This document shows positions 3,940 through 50,060 of a stretch of 64,000 nucleotides of DNA, piece by piece. The notes beneath the pieces are model-generated. The model was not told the DNA's origin. It did no database searches and worked only from the letters and a program-made list of their open reading frames with translations. The DNA is from Acidobacteriota bacterium (GTDB taxonomy: Bacteria > Acidobacteriota > Thermoanaerobaculia > Multivoradales > Multivoraceae). Every line of letters starts with the position of its first letter. Within the stretch, counting starts at the first letter, position 1. The stretch spans positions 124,001-188,000 of the forward strand of contig QQVD01000031.1 of the NCBI GenBank assembly GCA_003388555.1. The letters are read 5' to 3'. The position numbers and the translations under genes are program-made.

Positions 3940-4050
3940 CGGGGCTCCTTCGCGGCGCGTGGGTGGCCTGCGGCTCAATTCGTCAGCGGTCTCGTCTACG
4001 TGCTCTCGACCGGCGGGGATCGCGGCCGGATCGCAGTCGGCGCGAGGCTG

Positions 4051-5481
4051 CTACCAGCTCACCAGGGCGGTGCGTAGGTGACGCGGGCCGTCCTCTTCCT
4101 GTTCCAGCCAGGCGGCGAGCAGGCCGTCGCCGAGAGGGATCAACCGCGGGATGCCGGCCGAGCGCGCCGCCGAGCTGAGGCCGACGGTGCGGATCGCGCC
4201 GAGCCGGGCGTCCGCCGACGTCGGTGGAGCACCCTCGGCGCTGATCTCGGTGGCGGTGGGGCGGAGCGGTCGCAGCAGCATGGCCGCCCCGTCGATCGAC
4301 TCTCCCAGCCACGACACCCAGGCGACGCCGCCGGCGAGGGCGACATCGACCCGGCCGTACGGCCGTTCGCCGTCGATCAGCACCGGCTCGCCGAAGGTGT
4401 GGCCGGCATCGTCCGAGAGAGCGGCGAAGACACGCCGCGCGCCTCCCGCGCCGGTGTACCAGGCGACGACGACGAGATCGCCTTCGGCGGCGACTGCGGG
4501 ACCGTTGACGGGGCAGCCGGCGATGCGCCAGCCGTCGACGTGCACCGGCGCCGGGGCGCTCCAGCGGTCGCCCTGCCAGCGCACCCGCCAGATGTCGCGT
4601 ATCTCGTCTTCCGAGCGGTCGCGGTAGACCACGATCGGGCCCTGCGAGGTCGCCGCGGCGTCGGTGGGGCAGCATTCGCAGACCCTGGGGTCGAGCAGTT
4701 GCGACGGCCTCGTGGCGCCGTCCCGCCCGACCCGTGTGGCGCGGAGGCTCATCGGGCCGTCCTGCTGCATGGCGCGACCGTCGAGCCAGAAGGCCTGCGC
4801 CGCACCTCCTTCTTCCACCAGGCTGACGAAGCCGTGCTCGGTCTCGGAGGTGTCGTCGTGCAACAGACCGAGGGGATCCAGTGCGTCGCCTCGCCTGGCG
4901 CCCAGCTGGGCGCCGTAGGCGTAGGGGCCTTCGCCGAGCTTCTCCAGCCACTGGACGACGAGCACCGGTCGGGTGAACAGACCGCCCTCCAGCTCGACCA
5001 GCGAAGGCACGTCGGCCCAGTTGGCGAAGAAGGCCCGGCCACGTTCCGCCTCGCCGACGAGCCGCACAGGCGGCTGCCAGACGCCGTCCTCGAGCCGGCT
5101 GGCGTGCAGCGACCAGCCGCCGCCGGCTGCGCTCGCGCCGTGCGCGCCGTGCGCAGCAGCGGGGTCGTCTGGTGCCACGCCGGCAACGCCGGAGTCGACC
5201 GAATCGCGCTCGAGCCAGGTCAGCCAGGGTCCCTGGTTCCCCGGCTGCAGCTTGACTCCGGTGGGCTCGTGCGCCGCCGGCGCCTGCAGCAGGTTGAAGG
5301 TTGTGCGCTCGGGCAGGGCGTCGGGCTCGCGCGCCGGGCCATGCTCGTCGTCGGGCTGGCAGGTCGAGAGCAGCAGCAGCACGCCGAAGCAGGCGCTCGA
5401 CACCACCGCCGCGCCACGGCGGGCCGGCGGTCGCGGTCGCGGCGGTCGGCGGGCGACCTCTGGTGGGCGACGTCGCGACAT
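4051..5481 (-). CDS. Putative lipoprotein with sialidase-like (BNR/Asp-box) propeller
   Basis: A 476-residue exported protein starts at ATG 5481, with AGGAG nine bases upstream. An Arg/Pro-rich n-region is followed by a hydrophobic stretch ending LLLLSTC. This resembles a lipobox, although Thr at -1 is unusual. The rest is beta-rich, with repeated Trp/Asp motifs. At least one clear Asp box (SDDAGHTF) and the segments VYRDRSEDEIRDIW and WLTWLERDS fit a BNR/sialidase-type six-bladed propeller. Catalytic sialidase residues cannot be assigned, so enzymatic activity is not claimed. The gene is on the same strand as the downstream M14 peptidase gene, 111 bases away, and could share its transcript. 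The 221 bases upstream are shared with the divergent M23 gene. Confidence 0.6.
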   Translation of the reverse strand: MSRRRPPEVARRPPRPRPPARRGAAVVSSACFGVLLLLSTCQPDDEHGPAREPDALPERTTFNLLQAPAAHEPTGVKLQPGNQGPWLTWLERDSVDSGVAGVAPDDPAAAHGAHGASAAGGGWSLHASRLEDGVWQPPVRLVGEAERGRAFFANWADVPSLVELEGGLFTRPVLVVQWLEKLGEGPYAYGAQLGARRGDALDPLGLLHDDTSETEHGFVSLVEEGGAAQAFWLDGRAMQQDGPMSLRATRVGRDGATRPSQLLDPRVCECCPTDAAATSQGPIVVYRDRSEDEIRDIWRVRWQGDRWSAPAPVHVDGWRIAGCPVNGPAVAAEGDLVVVAWYTGAGGARRVFAALSDDAGHTFGEPVLIDGERPYGRVDVALAGGVAWVSWLGESIDGAAMLLRPLRPTATEISAEGAPPTSADARLGAIRTVGLSSAARSAGIPRLIPLGDGLLAAWLEQEEDGPRHLRTALVSW

Positions 5482-43786: not shown

Positions 43787-44638
43787 TCACGCCGTGGCGC
43801 GCACCCCGATGCGTTCCTCGACCCACTGCGCGGCCGCGAGCAGCTGGGGCACGAAGAGGTCGGGCCGGCGCACGCAGGCGATGTGGTCGGCGTGCACCGG
43901 GAAGGCGTGCGCCTCCGGGATGCGGTCGACCAGGCGGCGCTGGCGCTCCGGGGCCACGTGCAGGTCCTGGGTGGTGAGCACCACCGCGGTGGGCACGTCG
44001 ATCTGGGAGATCCAGCGCTCGGAGTCGAAGGCGGCGACGGCGATTCCGGCTTCGAGGATCGCCACCGGATCGGAGGCGCGGACCTCTTCCTCCAGGCGGC
44101 GTCGCGCCTCCGGTGAGAGCCCGCGGGCGGCGATCATCTGCTCGGAGGCGCGCTGCCAGGCGGAGTCGGGCGCCACCCGGGCGGCGAGCGAGACCACCGG
44201 GCCGCTGAGGTGGGCGACGCGGCGCAGGCGCTGGTTGGCGAAGCGCGGCGCGGTGGCGCAGAGCACCAGGCCGGAGACACGCGACGGGTGACGACGCCAG
44301 GTGAGCTGCGCCACCGCGCCGCCCATCGAGTAGCCGACCGGGATGAAGGCACCGATGTTGAGCCGGTCGGCCACCGAGATCACGTCGTCGGCGCAGCGCT
44401 CGAGGCGGAACGAGCCGCCGCTGCCGGCGATGCCGCGACCGTGGCCGCGCTGGTCGAAGGCGACCACGCGGTAGCGGCTGCCCAGCGCTTCGAGTGACGT
44501 CGCCCAGTTGAGACGGGCGGTGGCGCCGAGACCGTGCAGCAGGATCAGGGTCGGCGCTCCGCCAGGCCCGTCGATCCGGTGCACGCGGGTCGAGCCGCCG
44601 GTGGGCAGCTCGAGGGTCTCTTCGCACCAGGGGCTCAT
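43787..44638 (-). CDS. Alpha/beta-hydrolase fold protein
   Basis: A 283-residue cytosolic hydrolase starts at ATG 44638, with a weak binding site; a longer in-frame start exists but adds only Arg/Pro-rich sequence. The fold markers are TLILLHGLGATARLNW (oxyanion HG), VVAFDQRGHGRG, the nucleophile elbow VGYSMGGAVAQL, the acid in VVLTTQDLHVAPERQ and the His in PVHADHIACVRRPD. The family covers esterases, lactonases and C-C hydrolases. The first neighbour upstream on the same strand is the Trm9-like methyltransferase gene, 117 bases away. Whether they work together is unknown. Confidence 0.85.
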   Translation of the reverse strand: MSPWCEETLELPTGGSTRVHRIDGPGGAPTLILLHGLGATARLNWATSLEALGSRYRVVAFDQRGHGRGIAGSGGSFRLERCADDVISVADRLNIGAFIPVGYSMGGAVAQLTWRRHPSRVSGLVLCATAPRFANQRLRRVAHLSGPVVSLAARVAPDSAWQRASEQMIAARGLSPEARRRLEEEVRASDPVAILEAGIAVAAFDSERWISQIDVPTAVVLTTQDLHVAPERQRRLVDRIPEAHAFPVHADHIACVRRPDLFVPQLLAAAQWVEERIGVRATA

Positions 44639-44755
44639 CGGTTGTTGCTGTGCTGGAGGTCGCGCTCGGCGGGGTCGTGTCGGAGCCGGCCGCGCCCGGC
44701 TCAGTCTACGCCTGCGCGGCGGCAGCCAGGATGCGCGTGCCAGCGGCATCGGGCT

Positions 44756-45640
44756 TCACGGAGCCCGCTGCAGCATCGCGTAGGCGTTCAGGGTGCCGGA
44801 GCGGCCGTCGGAGGAGAAGCGCGCCACGGGGCTCCAGATCGGCGCGGGGAACGATCCGTCGAGCAGCGCATCGATCTCCTCGTCGGACGCCGAGTGGCAG
44901 AAGCGGATGGCGTCCGCCTCCCGCGGCAGCGGGCCGGCAACGCCCTCGCGGGTCTCGGTGTCGCCCCACGGCAGCAGTGCGTCGCCCGGCTCGAGCCGTT
45001 CCGCGGTGGCCCTGGAGATCGCGCCGAGGTCGACGGCGACGGCGGGGTCGATTCGCCGGGCGCGCAGAGCCGGCAGCGCCAGGAACTGCCAGAACGAGAC
45101 CGCGACGAGGCCGCCTGGTCGCACCAGGTCGCCGGCGCGGCGCAGCAGCTCGTCGCGCTGCACCCGGCCGGGCACGTGGTGCAGGAGGCCGAAGGCGACT
45201 ACGAGGTCGAAGCAGCGCCGTTCCCCGGCGACCAGCGGCCACTCGTCGGCGCGCAGCAGATCGGCGGCGAGCAGGGCGTGGCGAGGTTCGGTCGGGGTCG
45301 GCTGGCCCAGTTCCCCGATCCTGCGCCTCGCCGCGGCGAGCAGCGGCAGCGAGCGCTCGACTCCGACGTAGGTCCAGCGCGCTCCGCCTGCCGCCGGCGC
45401 GGGCAGCGCGTCGAGCAGGCGGGCGTTGCCGCAGGCGACGTCGAGCAGCCGCACCCCCTCCCCTGGCAGAGCGGCGAGTCGCTCGGAGGCGAGGGTGAGC
45501 ACCGTCGACCAGCCCGGCCAGGCGCGCTGGCGGGTGCGCGAGAACGAGGCGGCGTGACGCCGGTAGAAGCGCTCGTTCAGCGCGTCGAGCTCGTGCCAGG
45601 CGCGGCGCAGCGCGGCGGGTGGGTCGTCTTGTCCCGACAT
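44756..45640 (-). CDS. Trm9/ALKBH8-like SAM-dependent methyltransferase
   Basis: A 294-residue class I methyltransferase starts at ATG 45640. The N-terminus (ALNERFYRRHAASFSRTRQRAWPGW, residues 20-44) matches the Trm9 pattern of an Asn/Tyr helix followed by FSxTRxxxWP. SAM motif I is LLDVACGNARLL (65-76), then YVGVERS, and LVVAFGLLHHVPGRVQRDELL (147-166) corresponds to the Trm9 HH(W/I)xxxxRR region. Near the C-terminus GDALLPW (219-225) and RFCHSASDEEIDALL (246-260) match the GDxLVPW and RYxHxxxxxEL blocks of Trm9. Eukaryotic Trm9 methylates cm5U34 in tRNA to mcm5U. The elp3 homologue nearby makes the same function plausible here. A generic metabolite methyltransferase cannot be excluded. Confidence 0.75.
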   Translation of the reverse strand: MSGQDDPPAALRRAWHELDALNERFYRRHAASFSRTRQRAWPGWSTVLTLASERLAALPGEGVRLLDVACGNARLLDALPAPAAGGARWTYVGVERSLPLLAAARRRIGELGQPTPTEPRHALLAADLLRADEWPLVAGERRCFDLVVAFGLLHHVPGRVQRDELLRRAGDLVRPGGLVAVSFWQFLALPALRARRIDPAVAVDLGAISRATAERLEPGDALLPWGDTETREGVAGPLPREADAIRFCHSASDEEIDALLDGSFPAPIWSPVARFSSDGRSGTLNAYAMLQRAP

Positions 45641-45688
45641 CTTCGACCGGCGAGCGTACGCCGAGGGGGCGCCGCGCGCCCGGTGGCC

Positions 45689-46492
45689 TCAGCCGGGTCC
45701 GAGACCGAGGCCGCCGTCGACCGGCACCAGCGCGCCGGTCACCCAGTCGTTGGCGGGATCGCAGAGCGCCACGGCGATGCGCGCGACGTCTCCCGGCTGG
45801 CCGACCCGACCGAGCGGCACCTGGGGCCCGAAGGTGTCGATGAACTCGCTGGCGTCGCCGGCGTCCATCATGGTGTCGAAGATCGGCGTCGCGATGACCC
45901 CCGGCAGCACCGCGTTGACCCGGATGCGGTGCTCGGCGAGCTCGAGGGCGAGGCAGCGGGTCAGCATGTCGAGGCCGGCCTTGGCGGCGGAGTAGACGGC
46001 GTAGCCCTTGAGCGCCATGCGGGTGACGTTCGAGCCGACGTTGAGGATCGCCGGCGAGCGGCCCGCCGCGCCGCTCTCGATCAGGCGCGGCAGCGCCGCG
46101 CGCACGGTGAACACCGGACCCTTGAGGTCGATGTCGACCAGCGCGTCGACGTCTTCGTCGGTGATCTCGCCGAACGGCCCCTGGCGTGCGATGCCGGCGT
46201 TGTTGACCAGCACGTCGAGACCGCCCAGGTCCGCGGCGACCCGCTCGATCAGAGCCCGGTCTGCCTCCGGCTTCGAGACGTCGGCCGCGGCGGCGAGCGC
46301 CCGCCGACCGAGGCGGCGGATCTCCTCGGCGACCGCCTGCAGCGGGGCCTCGCGGCGTCCGCACACGGCGACGTCGGCGCCGGCGCCGGCGAGCTCGAGC
46401 GCGATGGCCCGCCCGATGCCGCTGCCGCCGCCGGTGACCAGGGCGACCCGGCCGTCGAAGGCGTGTCGCGATGAGGAGGGGTTCTCGGTCAC
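45689..46492 (-). CDS. Short-chain dehydrogenase/reductase
   Basis: A 267-residue classical SDR starts at GTG 46492, with GGAG six bases upstream. Cofactor motif VALVTGGGSGIGRAIA (TGxxxGIG), then VLVNNAGIARQGPF (NNAG), catalytic ILNVGSNVTRMALKGYAVYSAAKAGLD with Ser, Tyr and Lys, and the C-terminal GVIATPIF and PVDGGLGLGPG. It is a FabG-like oxidoreductase with NAD(P) specificity not decided by sequence. An Arg/Glu after beta 2 (VCGRREAPL) suggests NADPH. It lies between the Trm9-like and elp3 genes, divergent from elp3 by 164 bases. Its substrate is unknown. Confidence 0.92.
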   Translation of the reverse strand: MTENPSSSRHAFDGRVALVTGGGSGIGRAIALELAGAGADVAVCGRREAPLQAVAEEIRRLGRRALAAAADVSKPEADRALIERVAADLGGLDVLVNNAGIARQGPFGEITDEDVDALVDIDLKGPVFTVRAALPRLIESGAAGRSPAILNVGSNVTRMALKGYAVYSAAKAGLDMLTRCLALELAEHRIRVNAVLPGVIATPIFDTMMDAGDASEFIDTFGPQVPLGRVGQPGDVARIAVALCDPANDWVTGALVPVDGGLGLGPG

Positions 46493-46641
46493 GGGGCTCT
46501 CCGGATCTCTGGGGTCATCTCTCGGGGCCTTCTCGTCTCGCCCGGCGAGGACCGGGAAGTGGAGCTCGCTGCCGGGCCACCGCGGCGAGTCGACGCGGCC
46601 GCAGGAGGGTGAGTCTACGCAGCGCCGCCACTTCCCTTGAT

Positions 46642-46647
46642 TAGACT
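46642..46647 (+). promoter_or_regulatory. Candidate -10 box giving a near-leaderless elp3 transcript
   Basis: TAGACT at 46642-46647 ends nine bases before the elp3 ATG at 46657, and there is no ribosome binding site between. If used, transcription would begin within a few bases of the start codon. No -35 hexamer is clear, so the assignment is tentative. Confidence 0.3.
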
Positions 46648-46656
46648 GCGCTGCGC

Positions 46657-48576
46657 ATGTCTTCGACCACCGTCGCCGAAGGCGGCCGCGCCGCGAAGCC
46701 GCCGCGCGGCCGCTACGCCTTCGATCCCAGCGCCCACGCCGAGCGGATCGCGGTGGTGCTGCGCGAGGTCGCGGCGGCGCCGGAGACGCCTTCCCCGGCC
46801 GAGCTGCAGCTCCTCCTGCGCCGCTTCCCGCGGGCGTGGCCGTGCGCCGACGACGCGGCGCGGGGCGGGGTGTACAGCAAGAGCGAGCTGATCCGCGGCG
46901 CCCGGCATCTCGACGCCGACGGCGGGCTCGAGCGGCACGGCATCGCGCTGACCCTGCCCGAGCTGCTGGTGCGGCTGCGTCGCAAGCCGATCCGCACCTT
47001 GAGCGGCGTCGCCCCGGTGACGGTGCTCACCAAACCGTTCCCCTGTCCCGGCAAGTGCATCTTCTGCCCCAGCGACGTGCGCATGCCGAAGAGCTACCTG
47101 AGCGACGAGCCAGGCGCGCAGCGTGCCGCGGAGCACCAGTTCGATCCCTACCGCCAGACCCTTTCGCGCCTGCTGACCCTGCACAACACTGGCCATCGAG
47201 TCGACAAGGTCGAGCTCATCGTGCTCGGCGGCACCTGGTCGTTCTACCCCGAGGCCTACCAGGTGTGGTTCATCCGCCGCTGCTTCGACGCCTTGCACGA
47301 CTTCGCCGCAGGCGCGCGGGAGATGCAGGAGGGCTGGAGCCCGGCGATCGACTTCCGCCGGCTCGATCAGCGGGTCGACGGTGTGCGTCGAGGCCGCGGC
47401 CCCACGCCCGAGGCTCCGTCGTACAACCGGATCGTGCGCGCCTTCGACCCCGGTCCACGGCCCGGTGACCAGAGGCGGAACGGAGACGGCGAGCCCGCGG
47501 TCGGCGCGGCGGCGGACTGGGAGGCGTTGGCCGAGGCGCACCGGCGCAACGAGAGCTCGACGGTGCGCTGCGTCGGCCTGGTCGTCGAGACCCGGCCCGA
47601 CCGCATCGACGAGGCCGAGGTGCTGCGCATCCGCAGGCTCGGCGCCACCAAGGTGCAGATCGGTTTCCAGAGCCTCGACGACGAGGTGCTGCGCCTCAAC
47701 CGGCGCGGCCACGACGTCGCGGCGACCCGCCGCGCCATGGGGCTGCTGCGCGCCGCCGGCTTCAAGATCCACGCCCACTGGATGCCCAACCTCTACGGTT
47801 CGTCGCCGCAGCGCGATCTCGACGACTACCGGCGGATGTTCGGTGATCCCGACTTCCGTCCCGACGAGCTCAAGATCTACCCCTGCTCGCTGATCGAGAG
47901 CGCCGAGCTGATGGCGTACTGGCAGGACGGCCGCTGGCGCCCGTACTCGCACGACGAGCTGCTCGAGGTGCTGCGCGGCTGTCTCGAGGCGACGCCCCGC
48001 TACTGCCGGCTGACGCGGGTGATCCGCGACATCCCCGGCACCGACATCGTCGATGGCAACAAGCTGACCAACTTCCGTCAGATCGCCGAGCGCGACCTGG
48101 AGCGTCGCGGCGGGCGCTCGCTCGACATCCGCGCGCGCGAGCTGCGCGGCGAGAGGGTGCAGGCAGAGCAGCTCGAGCTGCGGCGCACCGAGTACGAGGC
48201 TTCGCACGGGGCGGAGCTGTTCGTCGAGGCGGTCACGGCGGACGATCGCATCGCCGGCTTCCTGCGCCTGCAGCTGCCGCGTCGTCCCGACGCGACCTGG
48301 ATCGACGAGCTGAAGGGCAGCGCGATGATCCGGGAGGTGCACGTCTACGGTGCCGTCGTCGCCCTCGGCCAGCGCCGCGAGGGCCGCGCCCAGCACGCCG
48401 GCCTGGGCACCCGGCTGGTGGAGGAGGCGGCCGAGGTCGCCGCGCGGAGGGGCTTCGCACGGCTGGCGGTGATCTCGGCGATCGGCACCCGCGAGTGGTA
48501 CCGACGCCTCGGCTTCCGCGACGGCGAGCTCTACATGGTCCGGCCACTCGCCACCGACAGCTGGGAGCGCCGATGA
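46657..48576 (+). CDS. elp3: Elp3: tRNA U34 radical SAM/acetyltransferase
   Basis: A 639-residue bacterial Elp3. It joins a radical SAM domain and a GNAT domain to build the carboxymethyl group on wobble uridine 34 of tRNA from acetyl-CoA. The radical SAM cluster is at C130, C134 and C137 (PFPCPGKCIFCPSD). VELIVLGGTWSFYPEAYQ, VGLVVETRPDRIDEAEVL and RRLGATKVQIGFQSLDDEVL are hallmark Elp3 segments. The GNAT part (about 500-639) has IREVHVYG, QHAGLGTRLVEEA (acetyl-CoA loop) and EWYRRLGF. No start-proximal binding site is visible. It overlaps pncB by four bases. Bacteria with Elp3 lack the other Elongator subunits, and none is present here. Confidence 0.95.
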   Translation: MSSTTVAEGGRAAKPPRGRYAFDPSAHAERIAVVLREVAAAPETPSPAELQLLLRRFPRAWPCADDAARGGVYSKSELIRGARHLDADGGLERHGIALTLPELLVRLRRKPIRTLSGVAPVTVLTKPFPCPGKCIFCPSDVRMPKSYLSDEPGAQRAAEHQFDPYRQTLSRLLTLHNTGHRVDKVELIVLGGTWSFYPEAYQVWFIRRCFDALHDFAAGAREMQEGWSPAIDFRRLDQRVDGVRRGRGPTPEAPSYNRIVRAFDPGPRPGDQRRNGDGEPAVGAAADWEALAEAHRRNESSTVRCVGLVVETRPDRIDEAEVLRIRRLGATKVQIGFQSLDDEVLRLNRRGHDVAATRRAMGLLRAAGFKIHAHWMPNLYGSSPQRDLDDYRRMFGDPDFRPDELKIYPCSLIESAELMAYWQDGRWRPYSHDELLEVLRGCLEATPRYCRLTRVIRDIPGTDIVDGNKLTNFRQIAERDLERRGGRSLDIRARELRGERVQAEQLELRRTEYEASHGAELFVEAVTADDRIAGFLRLQLPRRPDATWIDELKGSAMIREVHVYGAVVALGQRREGRAQHAGLGTRLVEEAAEVAARRGFARLAVISAIGTREWYRRLGFRDGELYMVRPLATDSWERR

Positions 48577-50060
48577 GCTCCGGGCCCGCCGCCGGGCCGG
48601 TCCGGCGGAGCAGGGAAGTGTCGCGGGAGCTGCGCCAGCGAGCCGGCTTCCCCTCCTGGGGTCTGTTCACCGACCTCTACCAGCTCACCATGGCCCAGGG
48701 CTACTGGCAGGAGGGCCTCGCCGAGCGCCGGGCGAACTTCCAGCTCACCATGCGGCGGGCGCCCTTCGGCGGTGGCTTCGCCGTCTTCTGCGGCCTCGGG
48801 CCGGCGCTGGAGGCGATCGAGAAGCTGCGTTTCGAGGCCGCCGAGCTCGACGCGCTGGCTGCGCTGCGCGACGCCGAGGGGGGATCGCTCTTCCGCGATG
48901 AATTCCTGTCCGCGCTGGGCGGGCAGCGGGCGGCGGTCGATCTGTGGAGCCCCGACGAGGGCGAGGTGGTGCTGCCCGGAGAGCCGGTGGTGCGGGTCGA
49001 GGGGCCGCTGCTGCAGGGCCAGCTGCTCGAGACCGCGATGCTCAACCTGATCGGCTACTCGTCGCTGGTCGCGACCAAGGCGGCGCGCATCGCCTGGCTG
49101 GCGGCCGAGGGCGACCCGGTGCTCGACTTCGGGCTGCGCCGTGCCCATGGCCCCGACGGCGGCCTGTCGATGTCGCGCGCCGCCTACGTCGGCGGCTGCA
49201 GCTCGACCTCGAACGTGCTCGCCGGGGCGCTGTGGGGCATCCCCACCGCCGGCACCCACGCCCACAGCTGGGTGCTGGCGCACGACGGCGAGCTGGAGTC
49301 GTTCCGCGCCTTCGCGCGCTCGCAGCCGGGCAACTGCACGCTGCTGATCGACACCTACGACACGATGGCGGGGCTCGAGAACGCCCTGATCGTCGCCCGC
49401 GAGATGCGCGACCGCGGCGAGCGTCTGCGGGCGGTGCGCCTCGATTCGGGCGACCTGGAGGAGCTGTCGAAGGGCGTGCGGGCACGGCTCGACGAGGCCG
49501 GCTTCGAAGCGGTGCGCATCGTCGCCAGCAGCGATCTCGACGAGCACGCCATCGTGCGGCTCAAGGCGGCGGGCGCGCCGATCTCTCTGTGGGGCGTCGG
49601 CACCAGCCTCGCCGCCTGCCGCGACGATCCGTCGTTCTCCGGCGCCTACAAGCTGACCTCGATCGCGTCTTCCACCGACGAGTCGGAAGCTCTGTGGCGA
49701 CCGGTGAGCAAGCGCTCGGAGGACCGCTTCAAGCGCTCCGATCCGGGGCGGCTGCAGGTGCGCCGGAGTTTCGACGGCGAAGGGAGGCTGCGCCAGGACA
49801 CCGTCTACCACCTGGCGGGCGACGGGCCGACGCGCACCGGGCGCCAGCGGGATCTGCTGCGCCGCCAGGTGCTGCAGGGCGAGAGGCGCTCTGCGGCCGA
49901 GTCGCTGGGTTCGCTGCGCGAACGGGTGCGGCGAGCGGTCGCGGCGCTGCCGGCCGACCTGCGCGCGTTCGAGGTCGGCGCCGAGGTGCTGGAGCAGCGG
50001 GTGCAGTTCGACGAGTCGTTGCAGCGACTGCGCCGCGCCGTCGCGCCGCCGCCGTCGTGA
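48573..50060 (+). CDS. pncB: Nicotinate phosphoribosyltransferase
   Basis: A 495-residue enzyme starts at ATG 48573, overlapping the elp3 stop (ATGA), with GGGAGC just upstream. It converts nicotinate and PRPP to nicotinate mononucleotide for NAD salvage. Family segments: LFTDLYQLTMAQGYW, APFGGGFAVFCGLGPALE, DFGLRRAHGPDGGLSMSRAAYVGG (with the phospho-accepting-type His region), GTHAHSWVLAHDGE, LLIDTYDT, VRLDSGDLEELSKGVRARLDEAGF and WGVGTSLAACRDDPSFSGAYKL. It is of the longer bacterial type. Translational coupling with elp3 suggests a shared transcript; there is no obvious biochemical link. Confidence 0.94.
   Translation: MSSGPAAGPVRRSREVSRELRQRAGFPSWGLFTDLYQLTMAQGYWQEGLAERRANFQLTMRRAPFGGGFAVFCGLGPALEAIEKLRFEAAELDALAALRDAEGGSLFRDEFLSALGGQRAAVDLWSPDEGEVVLPGEPVVRVEGPLLQGQLLETAMLNLIGYSSLVATKAARIAWLAAEGDPVLDFGLRRAHGPDGGLSMSRAAYVGGCSSTSNVLAGALWGIPTAGTHAHSWVLAHDGELESFRAFARSQPGNCTLLIDTYDTMAGLENALIVAREMRDRGERLRAVRLDSGDLEELSKGVRARLDEAGFEAVRIVASSDLDEHAIVRLKAAGAPISLWGVGTSLAACRDDPSFSGAYKLTSIASSTDESEALWRPVSKRSEDRFKRSDPGRLQVRRSFDGEGRLRQDTVYHLAGDGPTRTGRQRDLLRRQVLQGERRSAAESLGSLRERVRRAVAALPADLRAFEVGAEVLEQRVQFDESLQRLRRAVAPPPS

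Follow-up and report, generated by a model that had tools for sequence, protein, structure and literature searches.

A 64,000-nucleotide stretch of an Acidobacteriota genome (assembly GCA_003388555.1, contig QQVD01000031.1, positions 124,001 to 188,000), hereafter called the window, encodes Elp3 and, divergently and nearby, a class I S-adenosylmethionine (SAM)-dependent methyltransferase related to Trm9. The source genome is 6.8 Mb in size and 98.8% complete. Elp3, with radical SAM and GNAT parts, is encoded by an open reading frame (ORF) of 639 aa at 46657-48576 on the forward strand. The Trm9-like methyltransferase is encoded by a 294-aa ORF at 44756-45640 on the reverse strand (Methyltransf_12, E 2.1e-12). 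In the pathway proposed here, Elp3 would use acetyl-CoA and radical SAM chemistry to form 5-carboxymethyluridine at tRNA position 34 (cm5U34), and the methyltransferase would esterify the cm5U34 carboxylate with SAM to give 5-methoxycarbonylmethyluridine (mcm5U34). MnmA would probably then add a 2-thio group, so that the tRNAs for Lys, Glu, and Gln would carry mcm5s2U34. The Elp3/methyltransferase pair would stand in for MnmE/MnmG in the bacteria that carry it. On the sequence evidence, we consider this scheme of three successive products in place of MnmE/MnmG highly probable. Elp3 is known from bacteria and archaea without the other Elongator subunits. The substrate, the product, the order of the steps, and a partnership with Trm112 we infer from the protein families and their context. 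The initial annotation had read the locus as that of a bacterium which may methylate its own Elp3 product; co-occurrence and Trm9 kinship support this reading, with the caveats given below.

The association between the two families was evaluated in 60 relatives from the order of the source organism, the source genome included. A methyltransferase match at E ≤ 0.001 was obtained in 45 of them, 38 being strong (E ≤ 1.1e-18) and seven weak (2.2e-6 to 7.1e-4); the weak matches were counted as generic enzymes. Elp3 was found in 40 relatives, over the cut-off in 37 and in pieces below it in G022, G047, and G056. Both genes were present in 38 genomes, Elp3 alone in two (G028 and G056), and neither in 20, and every genome with the methyltransferase also had Elp3 (38/38; Fisher p 5.5e-14, uncorrected for kinship). 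The two matches lay on one contig in 29 of the 38, divergently oriented and 240 to 3,404 bp apart. The other pairs were either 1.9 Mb apart (G010) or on separate contigs (eight genomes).

A methyltransferase profile, A1, gave a bimodal distribution in 247 Acidobacteriota genomes. Twelve full-length matches scored at E ≤ 5.3e-79; the others were no stronger than 2.8e-16, except for a partial copy in G010 (9.2e-28). Elp3 was found in 14 of these genomes, namely the 12 methyltransferase carriers, G028, and G249. In locus L153 of G010, a partial second copy of the methyltransferase C-terminal region was seen at approximately 3999-4181 on the reverse strand, approximately 7.3 kb from the full gene.

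The survey of species genomes covered the best 80 of at least 353 confirmed relatives, ranked by similarity to the window protein; some of these loci belong to genomes of the 60-relative set. According to the submitters' record titles, from which the phylum labels were taken, the loci comprise 39 Chloroflexota, 15 Acidobacteriota, 12 Patescibacteria, 11 'Deltaproteobacteria'/Myxococcota, 2 Planctomycetota, and 1 Actinomycetota (L093, Lancefieldella rimae ATCC 49626, the sole record among them whose title names an isolate), six or seven phyla altogether. Elp3 lay within 8 kb of the methyltransferase in 57 loci, with every titled group represented. Of these flanking pairs, 55 were divergent and 38 had 300 bp or less between the match edges. 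The genomes of the remaining 23 loci all had Elp3 elsewhere (in G334, as two pieces below the cut-off), and Elp3 was thus found for 80/80 loci, in the flank or elsewhere. Elp3 and methyltransferase protein distances were strongly correlated across 51 loci (r = 0.91), a value reached in 0 of 2,000 permutations (maximum, 0.27). L083 and L141 were excluded from this comparison, its p-values carry no kinship correction, and shared ancestry accounts for part of the correlation. The two families consequently co-occur, as the initial annotation would have it, in 38/38, 12/12, and 80/80 genomes or loci. Since the divergent layout recurs in 29 of 38 order genomes within 3.5 kb and Elp3 flanks 57 of 80 loci, the pairing is beyond chance.

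MnmE/MnmG, the usual bacterial enzymes for the C5 side chain of the wobble uridine (xm5U34), are unrelated to Elp3 and the methyltransferase. Among the 247 Acidobacteriota genomes, 206 had MnmG at E ≤ 1e-60, 198 of them exceeding the cut-off. MnmG and Elp3 were never found together: all 14 genomes with Elp3 were without MnmG, and 27 of the 247 had neither. The same held in other phyla: MnmG exceeded the cut-off in 0 of 34 carriers tested, 32 of which are outside Acidobacteriota. We disregarded weak partial MnmG matches in 20 of the 34 (best, 8.6e-17 over approximately 100 of 616 positions). MnmA was found in 37 of 40 carriers (8 from the order and 32 from other phyla), and was missing in G292, G293, and G296.

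The window Elp3 passes the NCBIfam model TIGR01211 (479.8 bits, cut-off 350) over residues 104-629, which span the radical SAM and GNAT parts. The cluster cysteines described in the initial annotation, Cys130, Cys134, and Cys137, are intact within CPGKCIFC in the translation, and the GNAT domain is likewise present (PF00583, E 6.4e-5). In Elp3 of Dehalococcoides mccartyi (DmcElp3), residues K77, K193, E386, and Y441 have been named (PMC6367351). DmcElp3 numbering was transferred by alignment with 5l7j. The window protein shares the CX3CX2C spacing of DmcElp3, and its K184, K370, and E560, equivalent to K77, K193, and E386, are each invariant in 54/54 aligned Elp3 sequences. This count comprises the window and 53 of the 57 flanking Elp3 proteins; L074, L075, L086, and L132 were not picked. 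The 53 ORFs were selected by a motif holding the cluster cysteines and QHxGxG. Because that motif contains them, the presence of the cysteines in 54/54 is not an independent result. The window Elp3 is predicted to make cm5U34.

For the methyltransferase, the initial annotation had pointed to blocks resembling eukaryotic Trm9. The blocks FSRTRQRAWP, GLLHHVPG, GDALLPW, and RFCHSASDEEID are all present in the translation. The likeness itself did not emerge from single-sequence searches, in which the protein appeared as a generic class I enzyme, and a link with Trm9 appeared with profiles. Only generic methyltransferase models were matched in Pfam, by the window protein and likewise by 30 family members; nothing exceeded the cut-off in NCBIfam. 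The best PDB match of the single sequence was 3bus (RebM, E 0.0027), and Trm9 was not revealed. A wider alignment, A2, was then built from the window and 79 loci. L077 was excluded from A2, the start of L141 was moved 12 bases later, and L083, which is cut by a contig end, was retained. Against 177,635 PDB sequences, the A2 profile matched 5CM2 first (E 4.7e-15, 58.5 bits), which is Yarrowia lipolytica Trm9 from the Trm9-Trm112 complex. The second match was phosphomethylethanolamine methyltransferase (2.8e-14, 56.0 bits), aligned over positions 34-160. The 5CM2 alignment covers profile positions 26-228 of 248, from the TRxxPW block through the GCGN motif and HH to RYxH, with RYcH at 204-207, and among the best 60 of 93 PDB matches only 5CM2 extends beyond position 204.

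In the reverse direction, 5CM2 was searched against 7,823 ORFs from the loci and the window. Family members made up 58 of the best 60 entries, some genes appearing twice; the generic enzymes L063 and L056 were included and the window's own methyltransferase was absent. This search is a weak control because the ORF set is rich in family members. The AlphaFold2 model of the methyltransferase was confident, with a mean pLDDT (predicted local distance difference test) of 89.1. In Foldseek, the TM-score of 5CM2 was 0.51 by query; by target it reached 0.78, the highest such value in the best 50 rows.

The active site can be compared with mutational data for yeast Trm9, in which the changes R29A, H115A, R241A, Y243A, and N271A have a strong effect on both the affinity for tRNA and the activity (PMC5372719). 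R37 of the window methyltransferase, equivalent to R29, is kept in 80/80 relatives. The position of H115 is occupied by a His pair, H154 (79/80) and H155 (80/80), one of which we take to be the H115 counterpart. R246 (R241) is found in 79/79 and N285 (N271) in 78/79. Four of the five named residues are kept, and the fifth, Y243, is changed throughout the family. The equivalents are also conserved in a set of 30 relatives. The methyltransferase is predicted to be a tRNA cm5U34 carboxyl-O-methyltransferase. Because one active-site residue differs and its activity is a prediction, it is named Trm9-like rather than Trm9. Five loci (L009, L014, L018, L021, and L030) carry an arginine-rich insertion, RRQSRRRSSRRLRRQR or a near variant of it, between the LLRW and RYCH blocks. 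Yeast Trm9 has a long basic insertion at this place.

Several observations weigh against this assignment and the proposed pathway. The A2 margin of Trm9 over phosphomethylethanolamine methyltransferase is narrow (58.5 vs 56.0 bits). With the narrower A1 profile, 5CM2 was third (4.3e-11), behind RebM and phosphomethylethanolamine methyltransferase. Fold comparison did not single out Trm9: CcbJ was first in Foldseek and 5CM2 fourth by E-value, and in VIA-align METTL6 and glycine N-methyltransferase were on top, with 5CM2 not among the best 50 rows. The fold ranking says little because class I enzymes generally share the fold. The position of yeast Y243 (C248 in the window protein) is Cys in 73, Val in 4, and Ala in 2 of 79 sequences. 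Kinship with Trm9 accordingly stands on the best PDB match with A2, and is qualified by the third place with A1, a fold that does not discriminate, and the loss of Y243. In Elp3, the equivalent of DmcElp3 Y441 is Tyr in 52/54 sequences and Trp in two, including the window (Trp614); this is a single pocket residue and does not define the family alone.

On the genomic side, G028, G056, and G249 have Elp3 without a family methyltransferase, and the 80 loci were chosen for their similarity to the window protein. MnmG exceeded the cut-off in 0/60 genomes of the window's order, including the 20 without Elp3. As these 20 Elp3-less genomes lack MnmG too, the loss in this order is not explained by Elp3 alone. 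A replacement of MnmG was thus not read from the order, where none of the 60 genomes has it above the cut-off, but from the phylum and cross-phylum sets. Finally, G054 carries Elp3 and the methyltransferase and gave no Trm112 match, which counts against a strict need for Trm112. Locus L147 belongs to G249, a 2.0-Mb genome of the same class, whose Elp3 is 46% identical and which has no methyltransferase of the Trm9-like family. The 20 order genomes (e.g., G024, G029, and G050) contain neither Elp3, the methyltransferase, nor MnmG above the cut-off.

Trm112 (PF03966) was found in the window's genome and in 59/60 order relatives, with or without the methyltransferase. It was rejected as a marker of the pathway: its presence does not discriminate, because it is found also in genomes without the methyltransferase and is missing in the carrier G054. 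Trm112 is a candidate partner of the bacterial methyltransferase, and the prevailing Cys at Y243 sets the family apart from the yeast Trm9-Trm112 enzyme. Yeast Trm9 and the ALKBH8 methyltransferase domain likewise have the class I fold and a link with Elp3. What Trm112 does in bacteria has been described as unknown (PMC5372719).

The spacing given in the initial annotation, approximately 1 kb between Elp3 and methyltransferase genes on opposite strands, agrees with the coordinates. Within that 1,016-bp gap, it had omitted a short-chain dehydrogenase/reductase (SDR) gene at 45689-46492 on the reverse strand (adh_short_C2, 7.5e-60). The SDR gene is co-directional with the methyltransferase gene, and the true divergent gap between Elp3 and the SDR-methyltransferase unit is the 164-bp intergenic region 46493-46656. 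In a tblastn search of the neighbouring loci, SDR matches at ≥50% identity were found in 29 loci, some from one genome, and such close copies were confined to Acidobacteriota loci. The SDR was rejected as a core part of the pathway because its close copies occur in Acidobacteriota loci only. In G010, the SDR gene accompanies Elp3, with the methyltransferase 1.9 Mb off; in G002, it accompanies the methyltransferase.

Two further genes border the pair. An alpha/beta hydrolase gene (43787-44749, reverse strand) begins 6 bp past the methyltransferase gene; its best curated similarity is to PcaD, below the cut-off. It was dropped as a pathway part, since tblastn matched it in the window's locus alone, although the flanks of many relatives' loci are just 1.5 kb long. 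On the other side, a nicotinate phosphoribosyltransferase gene (48573-50060, forward strand; NAPRTase_N, 4.5e-26) has a start that overlaps the Elp3 stop by 4 bp (ATGA), which suggests translational coupling of the two.

Three other readings of the methyltransferase were weighed. It is unlikely, though the best of the three, that the enzyme acts on the Elp3-derived uridine to give a different end product, for example by methylating 5-carbamoylmethyluridine (ncm5U), a 2'-OH, or another atom, or in need of further enzymes such as the SDR. The replacement of Y243 by Cys in most members and the SDR gene between Elp3 and methyltransferase in the window's lineage would fit such a reading. The Arg, His, Arg, and Asn residues that orient cm5U in Trm9 are nevertheless kept in nearly all 80 members, and close SDR copies stay within Acidobacteriota loci, whereas the Elp3/methyltransferase pair spans six or seven phyla. 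A second reading, in which the enzyme esterifies 5-carboxymethoxyuridine (cmo5U34) and is linked with Elp3 indirectly, appears very improbable. CmoM does esterify a carboxylate on a bacterial wobble uridine, its substrate being cmo5U34, and the A1 profile also matched 8joz, the structure of a tRNA 5-carboxymethoxyuridine methyltransferase, at 2.4e-7. However, Trm9 scores better with A1 (4.3e-11) and A2 (4.7e-15), 8joz is absent from the best 60 of 93 A2 rows, and the presence of the methyltransferase family tracks Elp3. That the enzyme methylates small molecules or proteins and neighbours Elp3 by accident is hardly credible: the generic class I matches of the single sequence, CcbJ as first Foldseek match, RebM as first with A1, and phosphomethylethanolamine methyltransferase as close second with A2 speak for it, but the fold is common to class I enzymes, so that the ranking is uninformative, and cross-phylum neighbourhood, 80/80 co-occurrence, and correlated divergence are not products of chance. 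Formation of mcm5U34 from the Elp3 product is thus the reading that we retain.

A known counterpart of this gene pair is archaeal. Haloferax and Sulfolobus have Elp3 with a Trm9 homologue; an mcm5s2U-like U34 was predicted in H. volcanii, and in Sulfolobus solfataricus the genes for the two proteins are clustered (PMC2584109), whereas the bacterial loci are mostly divergent. Thiolation in archaea has been linked to Tuc1 (PMC2584109); the bacterial carriers have MnmA (37/40). For bacteria, a 2020 review presented Elp3 as a trait of one clade (Dehalococcoides) with no direct evidence for xcm5U derivatives, and its excerpt names no methyltransferase partner for DmcElp3 (PMC7663514). The excerpt of a 2020 census credits Trm9-Trm112 with the formation of mcm5U in archaea and eukaryotes; bacteria are assigned only 5-carboxymethylaminomethyluridine (cmnm5U), 5-methylaminomethyluridine (mnm5U), and 5-aminomethyluridine (nm5U) of the xm5U group (PMC7694415). 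A 2026 report states that numerous bacteria conserve only Elp3 (PMC13315578). In the open-access literature, searched by titles and abstract starts and with subscription papers and preprints mostly outside its scope, neither a bacterial Trm9 nor bacterial mcm5U was among the matches listed.

Taken across phyla, mcm5(s2)U34 is likely to be a widespread bacterial wobble modification, made by Elp3, the Trm9-like methyltransferase, and MnmA in place of MnmE/MnmG in many Chloroflexota, Patescibacteria, Acidobacteriota, Myxococcota, and others, and Trm112 may activate the methyltransferase. If this is true, many bacterial lineages would decode with the wobble ester of archaea and eukaryotes, and Elp3 would be a regular alternative to MnmE/MnmG. 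Methyltransferases with generic family matches alone would gain a function, and the pair would offer a starting point for finding out what Trm112 does in bacteria.

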